A DNA stretch of 64,000 bases from Longimicrobiales bacterium (GCA_951828585.1 OX639991.1:186001-250000), one strand, 5' to 3'; positions 46,890 to 60,459 are shown, counted from the first letter of the stretch. Translations and numbers: made by a program. The notes: generated by a model not told the origin, from the letters alone.

Positions 46890-48050
46890 TCACAAAACCA
46901 CCTCATCCCCCCACAACCGCTCCAGAAACCGCTCCCACGGCAGAATCCAGATCCCGTCCGCCGTCCGCCGGATCGCGCTCCCGTTGCACACCATGATCGC
47001 CTGCCGCGGCCCGTGCTCGTCGATGAACGCCCGCAGTCCCCGCAATTCACGGGAACCCGGGTTGGTTCCACCCTTCACCTCGATCGCGACGCCCCCCTCC
47101 CGGCCCAGCACGAAGTCGCACTCCAGCCCGGACTTCGTCCGCCAGAACCGTACCGGGAAGTCGTGCTCGCGATAGGAGCGATACGCGAGGATCTCCATCA
47201 ACACGAAGTGCTCTAGGGCCCGTCCGAAGTCGGGACAGGCTGGCCGCTCAATCCGACGACCCGTGACGTAGCCCGCGACGCCCACGTCGAACAGGTAGAA
47301 CTTCGGCGCCTTCGTGATCACCGCGCGCGAGCGGCGTCGGCTGAACGGCTCCACCAACACGCCGAGCAGGGTGTCCACAAGAATCTGGAAGTACTCCTTG
47401 ACGGTGTTCGAGCTGACGCCGCAGTCCCGGGCGACGTTGCTGTAGTTCATCAGTTCGCCGTGGCAGAAGGCGAGCGCCTCGAAAAACCGGGCGAAAGCCG
47501 GTGCGTTGCGCGTCAACCCCTCCTCGAAGACCTCTTCCTTGAGGTAGTCGTCGACGTATCCCGCAAGCGTCCGCCGGGGTGCGGCGGAGTCGTAGTGTGA
47601 CGGGATCAGTCCGTGGTTCAGCGCCCTGAGCAGGTCGAATCCGGGAACTTCGGCCCAAGTGAGGGGATGCAAGGCGAAGCGCCAGGCCCGGCCGCCCAAG
47701 AGGTTCGCGCGGCCTCTCTTCAACTTCCTCGCACTGGAGCCGCAGAGCACGAAACCGAAGCCGTCTTCCTCGATGAGGCGGTGCACTTCGTCGAGGATCG
47801 CCGGGACCTTCTGCACCTCATCGATGAGGATCGGACGCTTTCGCTGGGCGGGAGCCAACGCGCGGACGCGTTCCGGCAGCGTCCACGGCGCCCGCGTAAA
47901 CTCGAGCATCACCCGGGTGTCGAGCAGGTCGAAGCGCGCCGACAGTGGAAACCGCTGTCTGAGCAACGTCGACTTGCCGGTCTTGCGCGGACCCCAGAGG
48001 AAGGCGGACTGGCCCGGAGGCAACTTGATGTTGAGCGTACGGGAGTACAT
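46890..48050 (-). CDS. AAA-type ATPase with DUF4143 domain
   Basis: A 386-residue protein: Walker A GPRKTGKST (20-28), Walker B ILIDEVQKV near 75, a winged helix near 210-230 (NYSNVARDCGVSSNTVKEYF), and a C-terminal PD-(D/E)xK-like DUF4143 part (GLECDFVLGREGGVAIEVKGG). This family is widespread in accessory regions and its role is unclear. A palindromic sequence lies just upstream of ATG 48050. It is a distant relative of the ATPase at 59197-60459. Confidence 0.85.
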   Translation of the reverse strand: MYSRTLNIKLPPGQSAFLWGPRKTGKSTLLRQRFPLSARFDLLDTRVMLEFTRAPWTLPERVRALAPAQRKRPILIDEVQKVPAILDEVHRLIEEDGFGFVLCGSSARKLKRGRANLLGGRAWRFALHPLTWAEVPGFDLLRALNHGLIPSHYDSAAPRRTLAGYVDDYLKEEVFEEGLTRNAPAFARFFEALAFCHGELMNYSNVARDCGVSSNTVKEYFQILVDTLLGVLVEPFSRRRSRAVITKAPKFYLFDVGVAGYVTGRRIERPACPDFGRALEHFVLMEILAYRSYREHDFPVRFWRTKSGLECDFVLGREGGVAIEVKGGTNPGSRELRGLRAFIDEHGPRQAIMVCNGSAIRRTADGIWILPWERFLERLWGDEVVL

Positions 48051-52313: not shown

Positions 52314-52318
52314 ACCCG

Positions 52319-53545
52319 CTACGCCGCCCAGACCACCAAGCGCAGCTCGCTGTCGTCGATCAGGGTGTACTCGGGCATCCGCCCCGACAAGTCGTCGCTC
52401 TCACCGAGGATGATCGGTACTCCATCCCCCCGGCGGTCCATGATGCGTGATCTCCCAAAACTCCCGTCAACCGGCATTTGGCAGCGCGCCAACAGCGAGA
52501 CGACCAGCTCGTTTCGGCTGTATTGCCGAAGGTGCATGCTGTCCGTCGTGAGCGTATTGGCTAAAGAGCCCGGGACATAGAGTTCAAGGCGGTCGCCGAA
52601 CATGTGAAGGCGGATTCGCGCACCGGCCATGGAATAGTCGCGGTGGGCAACCGCGTTCGCGAGCGCCTCGAAGACTGCCCTCTCGCTGAATTGAGGGCGC
52701 TCGGTCCGAGTCGTCGTTTTCGCGGCTCGCACGAGCATGTTTCGGCGCACGAAGTCCAGCGTTTCAAAGATCTGTTCATCCAACGGACCACTGAAGTCGC
52801 GGGCGTCGATCTGGTAGTTCACGTCACGTCGTTCGCCCGCGTAGCTGACTGCTTGAACATACGCGTGAGGCAACCACTGCGTCGGTTCCGCCGTGCAAAG
52901 CAGCGCCCCGCTAACCGTAATCCTCGCGATATCGTCTTCGTCCCTTGCGATGAGTCGGAGCTTGGTCAGCGGGGTCTCCCCTGCTCCAGCATCCGGCGCC
53001 AGAAAACGCATAACCAGTCGCGATTCGAGATCGTCCGGCGAGGATCCCGGGATCGGCGTCTCGTCGAACCGGATGACGCGAGACTGGCTGCGCTCCTGAA
53101 GGAGTCGTGCCAATACCTCCGCAGGGAGTCTTCGCCTGGAACTCCCGATTCGACGAAAATAGCCCCCCGGACTCTCATGCACGAAGAGGCTCCGGGGCAC
53201 GACGACCTCGATGACGTTGCGAAGAGTGCCGTCGCTGTCTGGAAGTTCCAGTTTGTTGATTTGCGCGTCGAGCGGGGGCTTGATCGAATCGTTGCACATC
53301 TCCCGAACCCATGCTTCGACCAGGTCGATTCGATGCAAAGGAATGCCCACGATTTCTCGGGTCCGATCCGCCACACCCAGAACCAGCGTCCCTCCTCGCG
53401 AGTTGGCCATGCCGGCCATTTCGTCCGCGAGATCGTCGCGCTTGGGATCGGTGACCCTGTTACCGGCAACGAGGATGCGCTTCAGCTCCAGGGTCGAGTC
53501 TTCCCCGAGCCGAATCCGCCTCGCCATCGCATGAGTGTCCCTCAT
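52319..53545 (-). CDS. AlbA/Schlafen-type ATP-binding protein
   Basis: A 408-residue protein. The N-terminal AlbA_2 (Schlafen-like) domain is at about 10-130 (ESTLELKR-like DSTLELKRIL, NSRGGTLVLGVAD). A GHKL-type ATPase C-domain follows (FSERAVFEALANAVAHRDY, LELYVPGSL, GDGVPII). This COG2865-like architecture occurs in transcriptional regulators and in defence loci. The start overlaps the upstream PHP-ATPase stop by ATGA, so it is the second gene of a tight two-gene operon. Confidence 0.85.
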   Translation of the reverse strand: MRDTHAMARRIRLGEDSTLELKRILVAGNRVTDPKRDDLADEMAGMANSRGGTLVLGVADRTREIVGIPLHRIDLVEAWVREMCNDSIKPPLDAQINKLELPDSDGTLRNVIEVVVPRSLFVHESPGGYFRRIGSSRRRLPAEVLARLLQERSQSRVIRFDETPIPGSSPDDLESRLVMRFLAPDAGAGETPLTKLRLIARDEDDIARITVSGALLCTAEPTQWLPHAYVQAVSYAGERRDVNYQIDARDFSGPLDEQIFETLDFVRRNMLVRAAKTTTRTERPQFSERAVFEALANAVAHRDYSMAGARIRLHMFGDRLELYVPGSLANTLTTDSMHLRQYSRNELVVSLLARCQMPVDGSFGRSRIMDRRGDGVPIILGESDDLSGRMPEYTLIDDSELRLVVWAA

Positions 53546-56271
53546 GACACCGACCGATCCAGGGGCATGATCCGCCTGTACCGACTCGCGAAGGCTTCCT
53601 GTCCGCCTTCCATGACCTCGCAGATCCTGTCTCTTACCTTCTGTTCCTGAAGGCCACCTTCACAAGCCTTTCGGCTCTGGCCATCTCCGGCTTCCAACGC
53701 CAGAACGAACTCGGCGTCGCCGTGCACCACGATGTTCGGATTGTGTGTCACGACGATCACCTGGCGCCTGAGCTTCGTTTCCTTCAGCTGGTTGACCAGC
53801 AGATCGTAAATCAGGGTGTTGTCGAGATCGTCCTCCGGTTGGTCGAGAATGATAGGCTCCTCGCCATGGCCCAGAACGAAAGCCAGGAGGGCGGCCGTCT
53901 GTTGCCCCGGAGAGCCTTGCCTCAGCGGTCGCCAACCCTTGTTTCGATCCCGAAACGCCACGCGTACGTTGTCATCGGGGCTGTACAGAGCCAGCCGATC
54001 TATGCTCTCGGGCGCAACTTTCCTGAGCGTCGCTTCGAAGCGCCAATCCTCCGCTGTCCAAGCCTCTGACTCGTCCGCCTGGAAATCGCGGATGGCCGAC
54101 ACTAGCGAATCGAGGTGGTCCCAACTCCAAGGCTTCCCCGGCCCAAGCCGGATCCTTTCGGAAAGAGCCTTGCGGTCTGCTTCAAACCGATCGGTCCCCA
54201 GAATCCCGATCAGTTCATGCGGAAGCCCACGGTGGCTTTCAAGAGGGATCACTTCAACGCGAATGACTTCGCCTGTGGCTTCCGCCGCGAACGCGTTTCT
54301 GGCGCTGCTCAGATCTTCGCGCCGCTCGCGATAAAGTCCCAGGGTCTGCTCGGCCTCCCGCCTGAGTTCCCCCGCGCGACTTCGCTCCCGCTCCAATCCC
54401 TCGATCTCCCGCCACAGACGGGCTGCATCCGCGACTAGACCCCGGTATTCCCCGGGACTACGGATCCCCCGGTCGGCAAGCTGGGCAGACGCCTCCCGGA
54501 ACCCTTCCTCGCGGGCCTCCAAGGCCGCTTGCCACCGTAGGACATGCTCTCCCGCCAGTATCTGTTCGATCTGCCGCTGCGCGTCGTCAACGGTGTCGAG
54601 TACCCGTCCCCGAAGGCCTGCTACGGCGCGGCTGAGCGCTTCGTGAGCCTTCTCAAGATCTTGCTGTGGCGGATCTTCGTCGGAGCCAGCGGTCCCGAGG
54701 TCAAGATCGGCAACCGACAGTTGCTCCGCACCTTCCGCTACCGAACGAACACTCTGCCAAGCCGCCGACACTACAGCTTGCCACGTGTCGTCCTGCTGGC
54801 GCCTCCGGCGGTATTCGCTCAGTTGCCGTGCCTGATCACCTTCCTGAAGGAAGTCGAGCTTGTGCTGAGCGTCACTGAGCGCCGCCCGTCGAGCGCTGAG
54901 CCCCTCCGCACGTGCCGCGGCCGTACGGGCCTGGGCACGCAGGGACAGATACTTGGACTTGAGGTGAGCGATCTCACGGTCTCTCTCCGTCGCTTGGACG
55001 TGAGGGCTCCGATCGATGTCCGTCAGCAGCGCCCCCAGATCCTGAGCCATCGCAAACAATTGTTTCTGGCTGTAAATGCGTACCGGGAACCGCTCCGAGA
55101 CACTCCCTTCCTCGGGCGTCCGTCCCCCTTTACTCAGGCGACTGATCGAGGGCGTCCCTCCAGCGGGACTCCACGACAACGCGAATCGATCATCGTGTTT
55201 GCGGTAGGTCACTTCTATGTGGGTCTCCTCTCTAAGGAGCCCTTCGCGGTCACGCTTTGGTGGGACCCGCACGCGGCGGTCGAAGATCTTTCGTAGCGAT
55301 CCGTCGTCACCGGTTCCGCTACCGTCCAATTCCGAATCGAGCCGAAGCGTCTTGCGGCAGAAGTCCACGAGCGTGGATTTCCCGGTCCCCCGGCCACCGA
55401 TAATCGCGTTCAGCCACGGATTGAAGCGAACCACCATCGGCTCCTGCCGTCCCATGAACCTGGCGTTGGAAACGGTGATCTGTTCGATGATCATCTCCCC
55501 GTGACGGGAATTGGGATCTCCGGGCTCGGCAGAAGTCGCAGGCTTGAGAGAATCAGGCCCGTCCATCAGAGCCAGACCCAACCCCTCAATGTCGGGACGG
55601 GTCATCTTTACCCATGTGAAGCGCCGCCCCAGTTCCTCCAATTCGTGAGCGTCCGACGACCATACTCGTGAGATCCGGCGACCCACCTCCGCTTTGCTAC
55701 CGTCCAGCCAGCTCTCGTCAACACTGTGGTTGGGATCGATCTCGACGGCAGCCAGGCGTGAGTCCCTCAACACTGCCAGCCTCTGTTGGCCGTCGTGTAC
55801 GGCCAGGATCCCTTTGGGCCCGTTGGCGTGCGGCCCCAGGATGAGAGAGTCTCCACCCAGTTCCTCGAGAATCTTCTCGACGCTGAGTCCCGACCGCGCG
55901 AGTTCGGTCCCTCGCTCATCCACCGCTATTCCTACTCTGGAAAGCAGATCTTCCACGTGCTCTTCGCGGCAAGTCGGATCCAGCAGGACGAGCAGGTGAA
56001 CCCCGTCGCTGGCCGTTAGTTCTACGCCGGGAAAGAGAACCGGAGCGTCCGGCAGGCTCCCGGCCGCGGACTGGATCTCCGAAATCGCCCCGGCCGTATT
56101 GTGGTCGGTGACCGCTATTGCGTCGAGACCGGCCGCAAATGCCGCTGTAACCCAGCCAGGCCAGTCGTTCTCGTCGTCGTTTTCCCTACGGAAGTCCCTG
56201 GACCCGGGGGAATGGGCGTGCAGATCCACACGCCACCAACGCGAGCCTGGCCATTCCTGACTTCGGTCCAT
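53542..56271 (-). CDS. PHP-domain plus SMC-like ATPase (TrlF type)
   Basis: A 909-residue protein. The N-terminal PHP phosphoesterase keeps its metal ligands: DLHAHS (16-21), TDHN (55-58), PGVE (81-84), GPHAN (146-150), SDAH (206-209). The ATPase follows: Walker A GGRGTGKS (292-299), a coiled coil from about 400 to 700, an ABC-type signature GSPGQQTA, and Walker B PIILDQPEDDLDN near 830. This is the TrlF/PHP-ATPase layout, also known as a single-gene phage defence protein. Here it is co-translated with an AlbA/Schlafen ATPase. The PHP part may cleave nucleic acid or nucleotides on ATPase sensing. Confidence 0.88.
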   Translation of the reverse strand: MDRSQEWPGSRWWRVDLHAHSPGSRDFRRENDDENDWPGWVTAAFAAGLDAIAVTDHNTAGAISEIQSAAGSLPDAPVLFPGVELTASDGVHLLVLLDPTCREEHVEDLLSRVGIAVDERGTELARSGLSVEKILEELGGDSLILGPHANGPKGILAVHDGQQRLAVLRDSRLAAVEIDPNHSVDESWLDGSKAEVGRRISRVWSSDAHELEELGRRFTWVKMTRPDIEGLGLALMDGPDSLKPATSAEPGDPNSRHGEMIIEQITVSNARFMGRQEPMVVRFNPWLNAIIGGRGTGKSTLVDFCRKTLRLDSELDGSGTGDDGSLRKIFDRRVRVPPKRDREGLLREETHIEVTYRKHDDRFALSWSPAGGTPSISRLSKGGRTPEEGSVSERFPVRIYSQKQLFAMAQDLGALLTDIDRSPHVQATERDREIAHLKSKYLSLRAQARTAAARAEGLSARRAALSDAQHKLDFLQEGDQARQLSEYRRRRQQDDTWQAVVSAAWQSVRSVAEGAEQLSVADLDLGTAGSDEDPPQQDLEKAHEALSRAVAGLRGRVLDTVDDAQRQIEQILAGEHVLRWQAALEAREEGFREASAQLADRGIRSPGEYRGLVADAARLWREIEGLERERSRAGELRREAEQTLGLYRERREDLSSARNAFAAEATGEVIRVEVIPLESHRGLPHELIGILGTDRFEADRKALSERIRLGPGKPWSWDHLDSLVSAIRDFQADESEAWTAEDWRFEATLRKVAPESIDRLALYSPDDNVRVAFRDRNKGWRPLRQGSPGQQTAALLAFVLGHGEEPIILDQPEDDLDNTLIYDLLVNQLKETKLRRQVIVVTHNPNIVVHGDAEFVLALEAGDGQSRKACEGGLQEQKVRDRICEVMEGGQEAFASRYRRIMPLDRSVS

Positions 56272-56436
56272 GGACGTTGCCTCTTGTTCGGGGTATCCGG
56301 CCCTACCGACGATTCCGGAATACCTCGGTCGCCGTGTTGGAATATAGGGGGTCGGGCCAAGTCACCAACGTCGGCGGCGGCGATGGCGCCCTTCTACCCC
56401 TCGGCCGCTGGCCGCACGCACGGCGGATCGGGAAAG

Positions 56437-56664
56437 CTAAGGAGGACCAGGCGCCCCACCCCGATCCAGGCCGTACACCTGCACGTACTCCACGCCCAGT
56501 TCGTCCCGTGCGACCATGCGGACACCCGCGCTGTCCGTCACGCTGTATCCGGTCGCCGGGGGCAACTCCACAACACCTTCGGAGCAGCCCCAGGCGGCCA
56601 GAAACAGCCACCACGCCAAGTTTGATCCGAGGCTGGGTCTCCTATGTGGCGTCGGCGCGTTCAT
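56437..56664 (-). pseudogene. Internally deleted beta-propeller lipoprotein remnant
   Basis: A 75-codon frame from ATG 56664: signal and lipobox (FLAAWGCSEGV), the family's first strand (YSVTDSAGVRMV), then at once the C-terminal strand (ARDELGVEYVQVYGLDR) of a 6-bladed propeller lipoprotein. The body of roughly 300 residues is missing in frame. It is either a decayed copy or a short surviving product. Confidence 0.65.
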
Positions 56665-56800
56665 CGAACACTTGTCTCCCAAGTCAGCAACCCCTACGGT
56701 GGCCAGCGGTGTCAAAACGTAGGCGGTGGGCCGCTCTCAGCAACACTTTGCGGTTCGAAACCGACTCATTCCTGATGATGCCAACACGGCGGAGGAGATC

Positions 56801-58000
56801 ATGAATCCCCCGGTCAACACGGCCTCGGAATCGGCAGAGCGCCTGTGTCAATGGTCACGGCTCGTTCTGCTCTCCTCGCTTCTCGTCTCCGCTTCATGCG
56901 ACGACGGCGGGGCTTCCGGCTCAGGTGGCGCGCTCGCAAGTTGGACCCTCTCCGACGAGCCCAGCGTCGTCATCGGCGGCGCCGACGAACGCGAGGGCTA
57001 TCTCCTCCACCAGATCGTCGGAGCAGCGCGTCTCGGGGATGGCCGCATCGTCGTCGCCAACGGAAGCACTCTGCAACTGCGGTACTACGATCCGAAGGGG
57101 ACGCACCTCTTCGACGCCGGGGGCGAGGGCGAGGGGCCGGGCGAGTTTCAATCGCTGGTCCACCTGACCCGCCTTCCGGGGGACTCGATCCTTGCTCTTT
57201 CCTGGCCATCGCAACTCGTTCGATTCGGGCCCGAGGGCCGGTACGCAGGGTCGAGTCCCTACGAACCGTCACCCTGCCAGGGCTGCATGTGTCACGACGG
57301 TCGCCTCTTCCCTGATGGCTCGCTCCTGATGGTCTACTCGCTCTATGCCGGTATCTACCAATCCCGGAGGTGCCCGATCCCCACCGAGCCGCGGCCTTCG
57401 GCAGCGATCGGACGATTCGACCCGGCAACCGGGGTGCTCGACACAATCGCCGAGTTGCCGGGGGCCGAGCTGAGCTACCCGGCCGCGGACAGGATGTTTG
57501 CCTACCCGAAGAGTCTGGTCCACGGGATCGCGCGGGATCGAGTCTATCTCGGGGACACCGGGTCCGACATCATTCTCGAGATGGGTCTCCGGGGCGACAC
57601 CATCGCGACCCTTCCCGTACCCTTCGATCCGTTGCCCGTGCCCGCCGACGCCAGGCAACAGCCCAGGGAGCGGGAGTCCCGCTGGACATATATCTATCCG
57701 GATCACTACCCCCGCTACGCGCGACTCGTCGCGGCTCCCGGTGAACGGGTCTGGGTGATGGCCTATCCACCTGCGAAGGAACACCTGGATCACTGGGATT
57801 TGGAGAGTCCGAGCCAGTTCAGCCGACCGGAGGATGGAGGAGCGCTGTGGAGGATTGTGGGCCGGGATGGATCGTCTGTCGCCGAACTGCGAACGCCGGA
57901 AGGCTACTTTCTGCTGGAAGTGGGCGACGATTACATCCTGGGGATCCACAAGGACGAATTCGATCGCGAGAGTGTCCGGCTGTATGGGCTGATTCGGTAA
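56801..58000 (+). CDS. 6-bladed beta-propeller lipoprotein, copy A
   Basis: A 399-residue lipoprotein (lipobox VSASCDDGG) from ATG 56801 with GGAGGAGATC just upstream. Family motifs: SWTLSDEPSVVIGG, DEREGYLLHQIVGA, GGEGEGPGEFQS, RDRVYLGDTGSDIIL and the terminal DEFDRESVRLYGLIR. Five extra cysteines around 165-190 may form disulfides. It is a close paralogue of the genes at 60628 and 61968, sharing order and motifs throughout. The function is unknown. Confidence 0.82.
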   Translation: MNPPVNTASESAERLCQWSRLVLLSSLLVSASCDDGGASGSGGALASWTLSDEPSVVIGGADEREGYLLHQIVGAARLGDGRIVVANGSTLQLRYYDPKGTHLFDAGGEGEGPGEFQSLVHLTRLPGDSILALSWPSQLVRFGPEGRYAGSSPYEPSPCQGCMCHDGRLFPDGSLLMVYSLYAGIYQSRRCPIPTEPRPSAAIGRFDPATGVLDTIAELPGAELSYPAADRMFAYPKSLVHGIARDRVYLGDTGSDIILEMGLRGDTIATLPVPFDPLPVPADARQQPRERESRWTYIYPDHYPRYARLVAAPGERVWVMAYPPAKEHLDHWDLESPSQFSRPEDGGALWRIVGRDGSSVAELRTPEGYFLLEVGDDYILGIHKDEFDRESVRLYGLIR

Positions 58001-58194: not shown

Positions 58195-58590
58195 TCACGC
58201 GCCCGGCAGCACCTCGATGTCGGGACACCGCAGGAGCGACCGGTCCGCCGTCACCAGCGTGAGCCCGTGCACCATCGCGGTCGCCGCAATGAAGCGATCG
58301 GCCGGATCGTCATGGCCAAGGCGGATGGCGCGGCTGCCAAACGCGATGTCGAGCGTCATCGGGACGGAGCGCATGGGCCGGACGGTCAGGGCGGTGCGGA
58401 TCCAGCTCCAGGGGTCCGGATCGAGAATTACACGTCCCTTTTCCGCGAGCACCAGCGCCTCCCAGACACTCACGGGCGACAGAGCCAGCGTGTTCGCCGG
58501 TTCGGTCAACTGGCTGCGCGCCCGGTCCGAGAGCCGGTCCGGGTCCAGCAGGCTCCAGAGCCAGATGTGGGTGTCGAGGAGGAGATTCAT
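58195..58590 (-). CDS. vapC: PIN-domain VapC-type toxin
   Basis: A 131-residue protein: LLLDTHIWLWSLLD start with the first Asp, SVWEALVL (Glu), then HDDPADRFIAATAMVHGLTLVTADRSLL with the two late Asp. This matches the VapC ribonuclease family. The start overlaps the antitoxin stop (ATGA), the usual antitoxin-first order on the minus strand. Confidence 0.88.
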   Translation of the reverse strand: MNLLLDTHIWLWSLLDPDRLSDRARSQLTEPANTLALSPVSVWEALVLAEKGRVILDPDPWSWIRTALTVRPMRSVPMTLDIAFGSRAIRLGHDDPADRFIAATAMVHGLTLVTADRSLLRCPDIEVLPGA

Positions 58591-58991
58591 GGACCGTCAA
58601 CGTCCTTCGGGCGGCGATGCCTGGACCCGGCCGTCTCCGGCCGCAGGACATCCCAGTCGGACGGGTCGGACGCGGGAGAGACGATGTCCCCGACGATTTC
58701 GCCCGCATCCCGCATCGCGCCCATCCATGTCGCGTCGGCGGCGTGGGGGTCCCGGCAGTCGTCGGCTTCCCCGGCCATGTCGCTCTCTGCGCCGGGGACG
58801 GTCGGGGTCGCTCTGAGGGCGGCGGACATCCGGGCCCGCTCACGCACCACGCCGAGCCCGCGTTTGGGGAGGGCATGGCGCTCCAGCAGATAGCGCAACT
58901 CGCCCTCCAGCGAGCGATGGTTGGCCCTGGCCCGTTTCTTGAGTGCGACGATCACTGCATCGTCCACGTTGCGGATGGTCAGTACTCCCAC
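58587..58991 (-). CDS. FitA-type ribbon-helix-helix antitoxin
   Basis: A 134-residue protein from GTG 58991 (AGGAG about ten bases upstream). The N-terminal ribbon-helix-helix reads VLTIRNVDDAVIVALKKRAR then HRSLEGELRYLLERH, as in FitA. The C-terminal half is long and disordered for the family (usual length about 80), probably wrapping the toxin. It is the partner of the VapC-type gene downstream. Confidence 0.82.
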   Translation of the reverse strand: MGVLTIRNVDDAVIVALKKRARANHRSLEGELRYLLERHALPKRGLGVVRERARMSAALRATPTVPGAESDMAGEADDCRDPHAADATWMGAMRDAGEIVGDIVSPASDPSDWDVLRPETAGSRHRRPKDVDGP

Positions 58992-59165
58992 TTGAGTTGA
59001 GCTCCTCTTGTTGATGACTGCGAAACGCAGTCGTAATGTAATGGGTTCGCATGCATTATGAAATCTGACCCGCCGCTCCAACCAGGTATGCTGCGACTGC
59101 GGCGGGGGCTGCCATTCACGATATGCAGCTCAGGCCATCCACAGCCTCCGCCTCCTTAGCTTTTC

Positions 59166-59202
59166 ATTCACGTCATGAATGATTATCATTCACACTATGA
59201 AT
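59166..59202. promoter_or_regulatory. Two phased palindromes at the start of the DUF4143 ATPase
   Basis: ATTCACGTCATGAAT (59166-59180) and ATTCACACTATGAAT (59188-59202) are 22 bp apart, two helical turns; the second covers the ATG at 59197. The core ATTATCATTCACACTAT (59182-59198) also occurs, with one change, in the intergenic repeats. Confidence 0.6.
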
Positions 59203-60459
59203 AATCCAGTTCTCCCGCGCGTCGTCTCCCGGCGCCTCGACGGGACGATGCGCGTCATGCCCGCCGTTGTCGTTTGCGGGGCGCGCCAAACCGGCAAGAC
59301 CACGCTCGCGCGTGCCATTGCGGGGCGCAGTGCCGGCGGCGGCCGGACGTCCAGCCCAGCCACCTCCAGTCGCCAATACCTCTCCCTCGACGACCTCGAT
59401 GTCCTCGATCTCGCCCGCCGCAACCCCGACGCTCTCGTCCGCGGCACCCATCCGGTCACCCTGGACGAAGTTCAGCGCGAGCCGAGTCTCCTGGGCGCGG
59501 TCAAGCGGGAGATCGACCGGGAGCGCACACCGGGACGCTTTCTTATGACAGGCTCCGCCAACCTTCTCCTGATGCGGAGGGTCTCGGAGTCGCTGGCCGG
59601 CCGCGCAAGCTATCTGACGCTCTGGCCCATGACGCGGCGGGAGCAGCTGGGCCTCGGGCGGTGCGGAATCTGGGAGGAGTTTTTCGAGGTTCCCGACCGT
59701 GATTGGCTGGATGTCGTTGCTGCCCGGGCCGGGCAGCGGGAGGATTGGCGGGCGTTGGCCCCACGCGGAGGATTCCCGTTCCCCGCCGTCCACCTCGGCG
59801 ACTCCGCCCAACGCGCGATCTGGTTCGACGGTTACGTGCGGACCTATCTCGAGCGAGACCTGCAGGCGCTCTCCTCGATTTCCGCCCTTCCCGATTTCCG
59901 CCGCCTTGTCAGGGCCGCTTGTCTGCGCCTCGGATCACTGGTCAACCAAAGCGACCTCGGGCGTGACATCGGACTGCCGCAACCGACGGTTCATCGCTAT
60001 CTGAACCTGCTCGAGACATCCTATCTGCTCGTCAGGGTTCCGGCCTATTCGGTAAACCGCACCAAGCGGCTGATCAAGTCCCCCAAGCTGTATTGGAGCG
60101 ATACGGGTCTGGCCATGCACCTCTCGCAGGAGGAGGAGCCCCGCGGCGCCCACCTGGAGAACCTGGTCCTGCAGGATCTGCTGGTGTGGCGCGACTCGCG
60201 GTCGTCCCGGGCCGATGTTCTGCACTGGCGCACGACCACGAATGAGGAGGTGGGTTTCGTGGTGGAAGCGGAGGGAGCGCTGCTGCCGATCGAGGTGAAG
60301 GCCACCCGCCGGCCGAGACTTCGAGACGTTGCCCACCTGCACAGCTTCCGGAGGGAGTACGGTAGTGCCGCTCGCCCGGGCTTGCTGCTGCACGGCGGCG
60401 ATACTCTGGAGTGGATCACTCCCGAGGTGTTGAGCGCGCCCTGGTGGATGGTGATCTGA
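59197..60459 (+). CDS. AAA-type ATPase with DUF4143 domain, intact copy
   Basis: A 420-residue protein from ATG 59197. Walker A GARQTGKTT and Walker B VTLDEVQRE are present; SANLLLMRRVSESLAGRAS is a further AAA motif. The winged-helix part is DLGRDIGLPQPTVHRYLNLLE. The C-terminal part SVNRTKRLIKSPKLYWSDTG and EEVGFVVEAEGALLPIEVKA carries the nuclease-like core, and the chain ends WWMVI. Degraded copies of this gene flank it at 58044-58142 and 63543-63942. The biological role of the family is unsettled. Confidence 0.87.
   Translation: MNNPVLPRVVSRRLDGTMRVMPAVVVCGARQTGKTTLARAIAGRSAGGGRTSSPATSSRQYLSLDDLDVLDLARRNPDALVRGTHPVTLDEVQREPSLLGAVKREIDRERTPGRFLMTGSANLLLMRRVSESLAGRASYLTLWPMTRREQLGLGRCGIWEEFFEVPDRDWLDVVAARAGQREDWRALAPRGGFPFPAVHLGDSAQRAIWFDGYVRTYLERDLQALSSISALPDFRRLVRAACLRLGSLVNQSDLGRDIGLPQPTVHRYLNLLETSYLLVRVPAYSVNRTKRLIKSPKLYWSDTGLAMHLSQEEEPRGAHLENLVLQDLLVWRDSRSSRADVLHWRTTTNEEVGFVVEAEGALLPIEVKATRRPRLRDVAHLHSFRREYGSAARPGLLLHGGDTLEWITPEVLSAPWWMVI

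Follow-up and report, generated by a model that had tools for sequence, protein, structure and literature searches.

An overlapping TrlF-AlbA gene pair, probably a two-part variant of a known anti-phage defence

Two overlapping genes of a Longimicrobiales bacterium probably form one two-part variant of a known defence, since they are co-inherited in several phyla and located inside known anti-phage gene clusters. The genes lie in the window, i.e., the whole stretch of 64,000 nucleotides analysed here (GCA_951828585.1, OX639991.1:186001-250000), and encode a TrlF-family protein and a protein with Schlafen/AlbA_2 and GHKL domains, hereafter named AlbA. Judging from comparative genomics, the two genes likely work together as a defence module. 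The gene coupling reported in the first-pass annotation was confirmed, with both genes on the minus strand and a 4-nt ATGA overlap. The locus is organised as follows.

53542-56271, minus strand: TrlF-family gene, 909 aa, ATG start; PHP domain, SMC/Rad50-type ATPase head and long coiled coil
52319-53545, minus strand: AlbA_2/Schlafen-GHKL gene (AlbA), 408 aa
53542-53545, minus strand: 4-nt ATGA overlap, AlbA start codon and TrlF stop codon
55522-56244, minus strand: PHP domain, TrlF residues 10-250; ligands H18, H20, H57, E84, H148, D207, H209; EndoQ is the nearest solved fold
55372-55398, minus strand: Walker A GGRGTGKST, TrlF residues 292-300
54277-54993, minus strand: predicted coiled-coil helices, TrlF residues 427-665, from AF2 secondary structure
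53734-53913, minus strand: ABC signature, Walker B (ILDQPED) and H-loop (THN), TrlF residues 787-846
53126-53503, minus strand: SLFN_AlbA_2 domain, AlbA residues 15-140 (Pfam)
53480-53503, minus strand: E15-x4-E20-x-K22 motif of AlbA, aligning with SLFN13 E205/E210
53366-53368, minus strand: D60 of AlbA, aligning with SLFN13 D248
52322-52870, minus strand: GHKL-fold ATPase-like domain, AlbA residues 226-408, with N-box E293/N297/H301/R302; Pfam HATPase_c_4 covers residues 308-403
52314-56874, unstranded: accessory insertion, missing at the equivalent site of congeners G021 and G029; right boundary at 56874-56932

The 909-residue protein had been described as a TrlF-type combination of an intact PHP metal site, an ABC/SMC-type ATPase and a long coiled coil, and this description held. 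The protein scored 489 bits against the NCBIfam model NF045780 (cut-off 350) over residues 9-901, which places it in the TrlF family. All PHP residues (D16, H18, H20, D56, H57, E84, H148, D207, H209) and all ATPase motifs (Walker A K298, Q-loop Q402, signature S787/G789, Walker B D810/E813, H-loop H843) are intact, and the AF2 model (pLDDT 87) agrees with this architecture. Among solved folds, the modelled PHP domain best matches that of EndoQ (Z 21.0, rmsd 3.2 over 221 residues), which is a DNA endonuclease of the PHP family; the head resembles SMC/Rad50 (Z ~18). A profile search for a solved structure of Ppl/TrlF returned no chain carrying both parts. The Ppl model NF042955 matched over the whole length with 455 bits, below its equivalog cut-off of 1000, and PADLOC also labels the protein Ppl-like. 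With its sites intact, the window TrlF very likely has a mode of action related to that of Ppl; we regard it as Ppl-like in its presumed working and, given the equivalog cut-off, claim no Ppl membership.

AlbA scored 52.6 bits against SLFN_AlbA_2 (Pfam cut-off 25.3), assigning it to the Schlafen/AlbA_2 family, and HATPase_c_4 is its other Pfam domain. In the predicted model (pLDDT 85), the first part resembles Schlafen/SAMD9 nuclease domains (Z ~10) and the last part GHKL ATPases/kinases (Z ~9.5). Over its whole length, the fold matches Corynebacterium diphtheriae DIP2311 (PDB 3lmm, structural genomics; Z 23.5). When the SLFN13 catalytic triad was used as a residue reference (PMC5862951), E15, E20 and D60 of the window AlbA corresponded to the two Glu and one Asp of that active site, and all are kept in the window's clade. 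In the GHKL domain, the N-box is invariant, and the DxGxG box was not recognised (residues 325-326 are PG). AlbA (52319-53545, minus strand) also weakly matches PADLOC profiles PDLC02394 and PDLC02402, of pAgo and Argonaute-associated SIR2, which raises the possibility that short Argonautes have similar domains as fusions or partners.

The pair is not unique to this genome, a possibility that the first-pass annotation had raised against itself. The genome holds three TrlF-AlbA pairs, the other two at ~774.5 and 2162 kb, with TrlFs that are distant paralogues of the window's, and further pairs occur in other genomes and phyla. Across 395 Gemmatimonadota genomes searched with the NCBIfam TrlF model, which is blind to AlbA, 20 TrlF genes exceeded the family cut-off and 17 of them had AlbA directly downstream; the shorter ATPases without PHP that this search also listed are not followed by AlbA. 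Among 121 family genomes, 12 carry a relative, and in similarity searches with the window protein all full-length TrlF genes recovered were followed by AlbA. One of these AlbA genes is broken: in G037 (L026:447-1483) it is split into two ORFs with ~80 residues missing, next to an intact TrlF. Another locus (L061:1345-3022) is a deletion remnant in which TrlF is reduced to its PHP end and AlbA to its GHKL end. The gene order is conserved as well, with TrlF first and AlbA second in all pairs seen and never the reverse, and junction lengths range from -22 to +26 nt over all intact pairs of four clades. No TrlF-AlbA fusion was present among the ORFs scanned. Outside the phylum, plasmids of Pseudomonas, Yersinia, Vibrio, Klebsiella, Citrobacter and E. 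coli carry the pair, as do the E. coli JJ2434 chromosome and an Acidimicrobiia contig, and a decayed form was detected on a Bergeyella plasmid (Bacteroidota); at least 80% of the IncC-type pair is present in 38 of 5426 complete E. coli genomes. Beyond Gemmatimonadota and plasmids, this distribution reflects thin coverage, namely one genome-contig scan with a single protein and two loci. No plasmid relatives of clade IV were found.

The two genes also share their history. The TrlF and AlbA trees contain an identical set of four clades, and pairwise distances are correlated across 25 pairs (Mantel r = 0.959, 0 of 9999 permutations as high) and inside the window's clade (r = 0.989). Chance adjacency was ruled out by the three pairs in one genome, the phylum-wide count, the tight junctions and the congruent distances. 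Compared with relatives 71-84% identical, dN/dS was ~0.15-0.16 for TrlF and 0.10 for AlbA, so both are under purifying selection. In the TrlF tree, solo plasmid TrlFs nest within the paired clades, consistent with AlbA having been lost or gained repeatedly.

The first-pass annotation had proposed a search for defence-gene neighbours. The pairs do have such neighbours, a claim that we based on positions internal to operons. Pairs were found inside an Hma operon (HmaA-HmaB-TrlF-AlbA-HmaC, L237), inside a BREX operon (PglX-TrlF-AlbA-PglZ-BrxL) and, on IncC plasmids, within type I restriction-modification (R-M) loci in two different gene orders. The same R-M locus with the pair adjoins Tn7-like transposition genes on an E. 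coli chromosome. Other pairs lie near PglX/PglZ (L232), near DruE-like and helicase genes (L240) or near HmaA or DpdE/ZorD-like helicases (L016, L236). The window pair itself is accessory: its flanking genes are also present in the congeners G021 and G029, where they lie 95 and 360 bp from each other and enclose no pair.

The association is asymmetric: a TrlF of these clades is almost always accompanied by AlbA, whereas AlbA relatives often stand alone, even inside BREX. It had been asked whether AlbA occurs mostly beside unrelated neighbours, and this was half borne out, since 10 of 32 clade-I-like AlbA genes follow TrlF; the remainder have no evident partner or lie next to other genes, among them HsdM and PglX, in the latter case with or without PglZ on the other side. 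Two AlbA-GHKL proteins ~50% identical to the window's illustrate such solo positions, one between PglX and PglZ (L224:2-4225) and one directly after PglX (L212:3-2754), both without TrlF. Since relatives stand alone between PglX and PglZ, AlbA can apparently act without TrlF. Solo TrlF is in turn common on plasmids, and nearly all TrlFs of viral contigs are solo; given how frequent both solo genes are, AlbA looks like an autonomous accessory module adopted by certain TrlF clades. The proposal that the second protein is a functional partner therefore stands for a recurrent accessory partner, as coupling and order indicate, but not for an obligate half of every TrlF system, because solo TrlFs and solo AlbAs occur and Ppl works as one gene. 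A phage-borne origin of the pair was considered and rejected: among viral-contig TrlF loci with PHP, AlbA was present only at L142, and annotated phages gave short partial matches only. Many viral-contig loci (e.g., L134-L141, L194-L195), as well as L056-L060 and L065, encode TrlF relatives of ~620-680 aa without PHP and without AlbA. A solo clade II TrlF is located on a Staphylococcus epidermidis plasmid (L253:4986-7607); in this species, a published GWAS ties ppl-type genes to phage resistance (PMC13152194).

The predicted active sites vary among clades. E15, E20 and K22 are invariant across AlbA clades I, II and IV. Clade III AlbAs (L071, L072, L073, L086, L142) and L081 carry a conserved Gln for the second catalytic Glu, E20 (GEDSRxQFK and similar); clade III partners do not have the full set of two Glu and one Asp of the SLFN13 active site. 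This Schlafen lineage is probably not an RNase, and the Gln at E20 in clade III partners suggests that not all pairs require RNase chemistry. In clade II TrlF (L017, L031, L048, L049, L063, L079, L082, L083, L249-L254), a conserved CALQVNP replaces DLHxH, and D-V/I replaces D-x-H, from Firmicutes to Gemmatimonadota. CALQVNP is common to solo and paired clade II TrlFs, so the PHP site looks repurposed and apparently non-canonical rather than decayed. For the same reason we set aside a "complementary decay" in which AlbA would be the effector where the clade II PHP is dead, with the reverse in clade III.

According to a 2026 review (PMC12904381), E. coli Ppl is an exonuclease acting on ssDNA 3'-5'; NTPs inhibit it, and 3'-OH ends are a further requirement. 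In our preferred reading, TrlF and AlbA would together be a single accessory module against phage, a version of TrlF/Ppl defence with two genes. TrlF would act as sensor and DNA-directed enzyme: its nucleotide-gated SMC/Rad50-like head would sense DNA ends, a drop in nucleotide levels or both, and DNA would, by extension from Ppl, be cut by the EndoQ-like PHP domain. The co-translated AlbA-GHKL protein would be a Schlafen-type RNase, with tRNA as the probable substrate, held silent by its GHKL domain and by contact with TrlF until TrlF is triggered; it would then deliver a second hit by stopping translation. Anti-phage function, physical contact, RNase activity and trigger are what we infer for the pair. 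In favour, we counted the 17 of 20 pairing, the congruent trees, the insertion into defence operons, the empty sites, the SLFN13-like residues, the Schlafen/SAMD9 tRNase folds and the solo AlbAs in BREX; against, the clade III Gln, the lack of a recognisable DxGxG, and the frequency of TrlF without AlbA and of AlbA without TrlF. The full dual-effector mechanism is accordingly a tentative proposal that falls somewhat short of an even chance.

For the window's clade, a TrlF sensor and DNA nuclease with a gated AlbA RNase is nevertheless favoured over the reading in which AlbA is a non-catalytic regulator or adaptor, binding nucleic acids, sensing nucleotides and restraining or loading a toxic TrlF nuclease that is the sole effector. 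This reading is less probable and still a serious contender. It would account for the conserved replacement of E20 by Gln in clade III while pairing persists, and for the invariance of the GHKL residues E293, N297, H301, R302 and G373/G375; Ppl alone is reported to suffice for defence (PMC12904381), and since Ppl is inhibited by NTPs, a partner that binds nucleotides is plausible. It sits less well with the invariant E15, E20 and K22 of the other clades, with AlbA relatives maintained in BREX and next to HsdM where TrlF is missing, and with solo TrlFs that manage without AlbA.

We judge it unlikely that TrlF and AlbA are two independent effectors, co-transcribed through shared insertion into the same kinds of operons and exchanging no contact or signal: each is also found without the other at such sites (TrlF after BrxL, AlbA between PglX and PglZ), but the trees are congruent, and the strict order and short junctions hold in four clades. 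A housekeeping role in DNA repair or genome maintenance is very improbable. The SMC/Rad50-like head and EndoQ-like PHP domain are repair folds as well, yet the distribution is patchy (12 of 121 family genomes), and empty sites, conjugative plasmids and positions inside Hma, BREX and R-M operons do not suit such a role. More speculative than the preferred module, and on the doubtful side, is a dual DNA/RNA nuclease guard inside BREX, Hma and type I R-M that would fire when phages disable the host system, PARIS- or PrrC-like with unrelated effectors. Its catalytic roles would have shifted among clades, clade II TrlF having lost canonical PHP ligands and clade III AlbA the second Glu; only here is complementary decay retained.

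Both components resemble proteins already known. The window TrlF shares with the Ppl/TrlF family the PHP and SMC-type ATPase, a full-length match and intact sites, but Ppl is a tested single-gene defence, whereas the window TrlF has a co-evolving second gene. BREX-linked Schlafens with a kinase-like tail were proposed to be backup RNases (PMC12839542), and a preprint, as cited there, concerns bacterial Schlafens in anti-phage defence. The window AlbA shares with these proteins and with SLFN11/13/14 the AlbA_2 fold, the E-x4-E-x-K and GVxD residues and a GHKL-like tail, and close AlbA relatives occur inside BREX. Vertebrate Schlafens differ by a two-lobed core, in place of one AlbA_2 lobe and a GHKL domain, and other Schlafen/AlbA_2-HATPase_c_4 proteins differ from the window AlbA in its tie to TrlF, its RNase role being putative. 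PARIS (AriA-AriB) is similar by analogy, with an ABC-type ATPase, a separate putative tRNase partner and BREX/R-M contexts, but AriB is a Toprim nuclease, whereas the window ATPase has a PHP domain and a Schlafen-type partner; no AriB model matched this partner, an AlbA_2-HATPase_c_4 protein. No description of the TrlF-AlbA pair was found in the open-access literature searched; operons of this kind may already be noted in a 2020 survey of ABC ATPases in conflict systems (Krishnan et al., doi 10.1093/nar/gkaa726). TrlF/Ppl and Schlafen-type accessory proteins are both known, and as far as the searched literature shows, the co-evolving pair appears to be what is new.

Two recently identified components of immunity, Ppl/TrlF and the bacterial Schlafens, would be joined by the pair into one co-inherited unit, Ppl being a relative that cuts DNA against phage and AlbA being related to human antiviral Schlafen proteins. 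The pair could explain the presence of such inserts in BREX, Hma and R-M operons, and could show whether regulation without nuclease activity is a possible role of a Schlafen fold. Natural pairs of IncC plasmids and the E. coli chromosomal copies beside Tn7-like transposition genes make a test in laboratory E. coli feasible. Near the locus, the window also encodes a PIN/FitA-like toxin-antitoxin pair and two DUF4143 AAA ATPases (58195-59081, minus strand; 46890-48050, minus strand; 59179-60459, plus strand).
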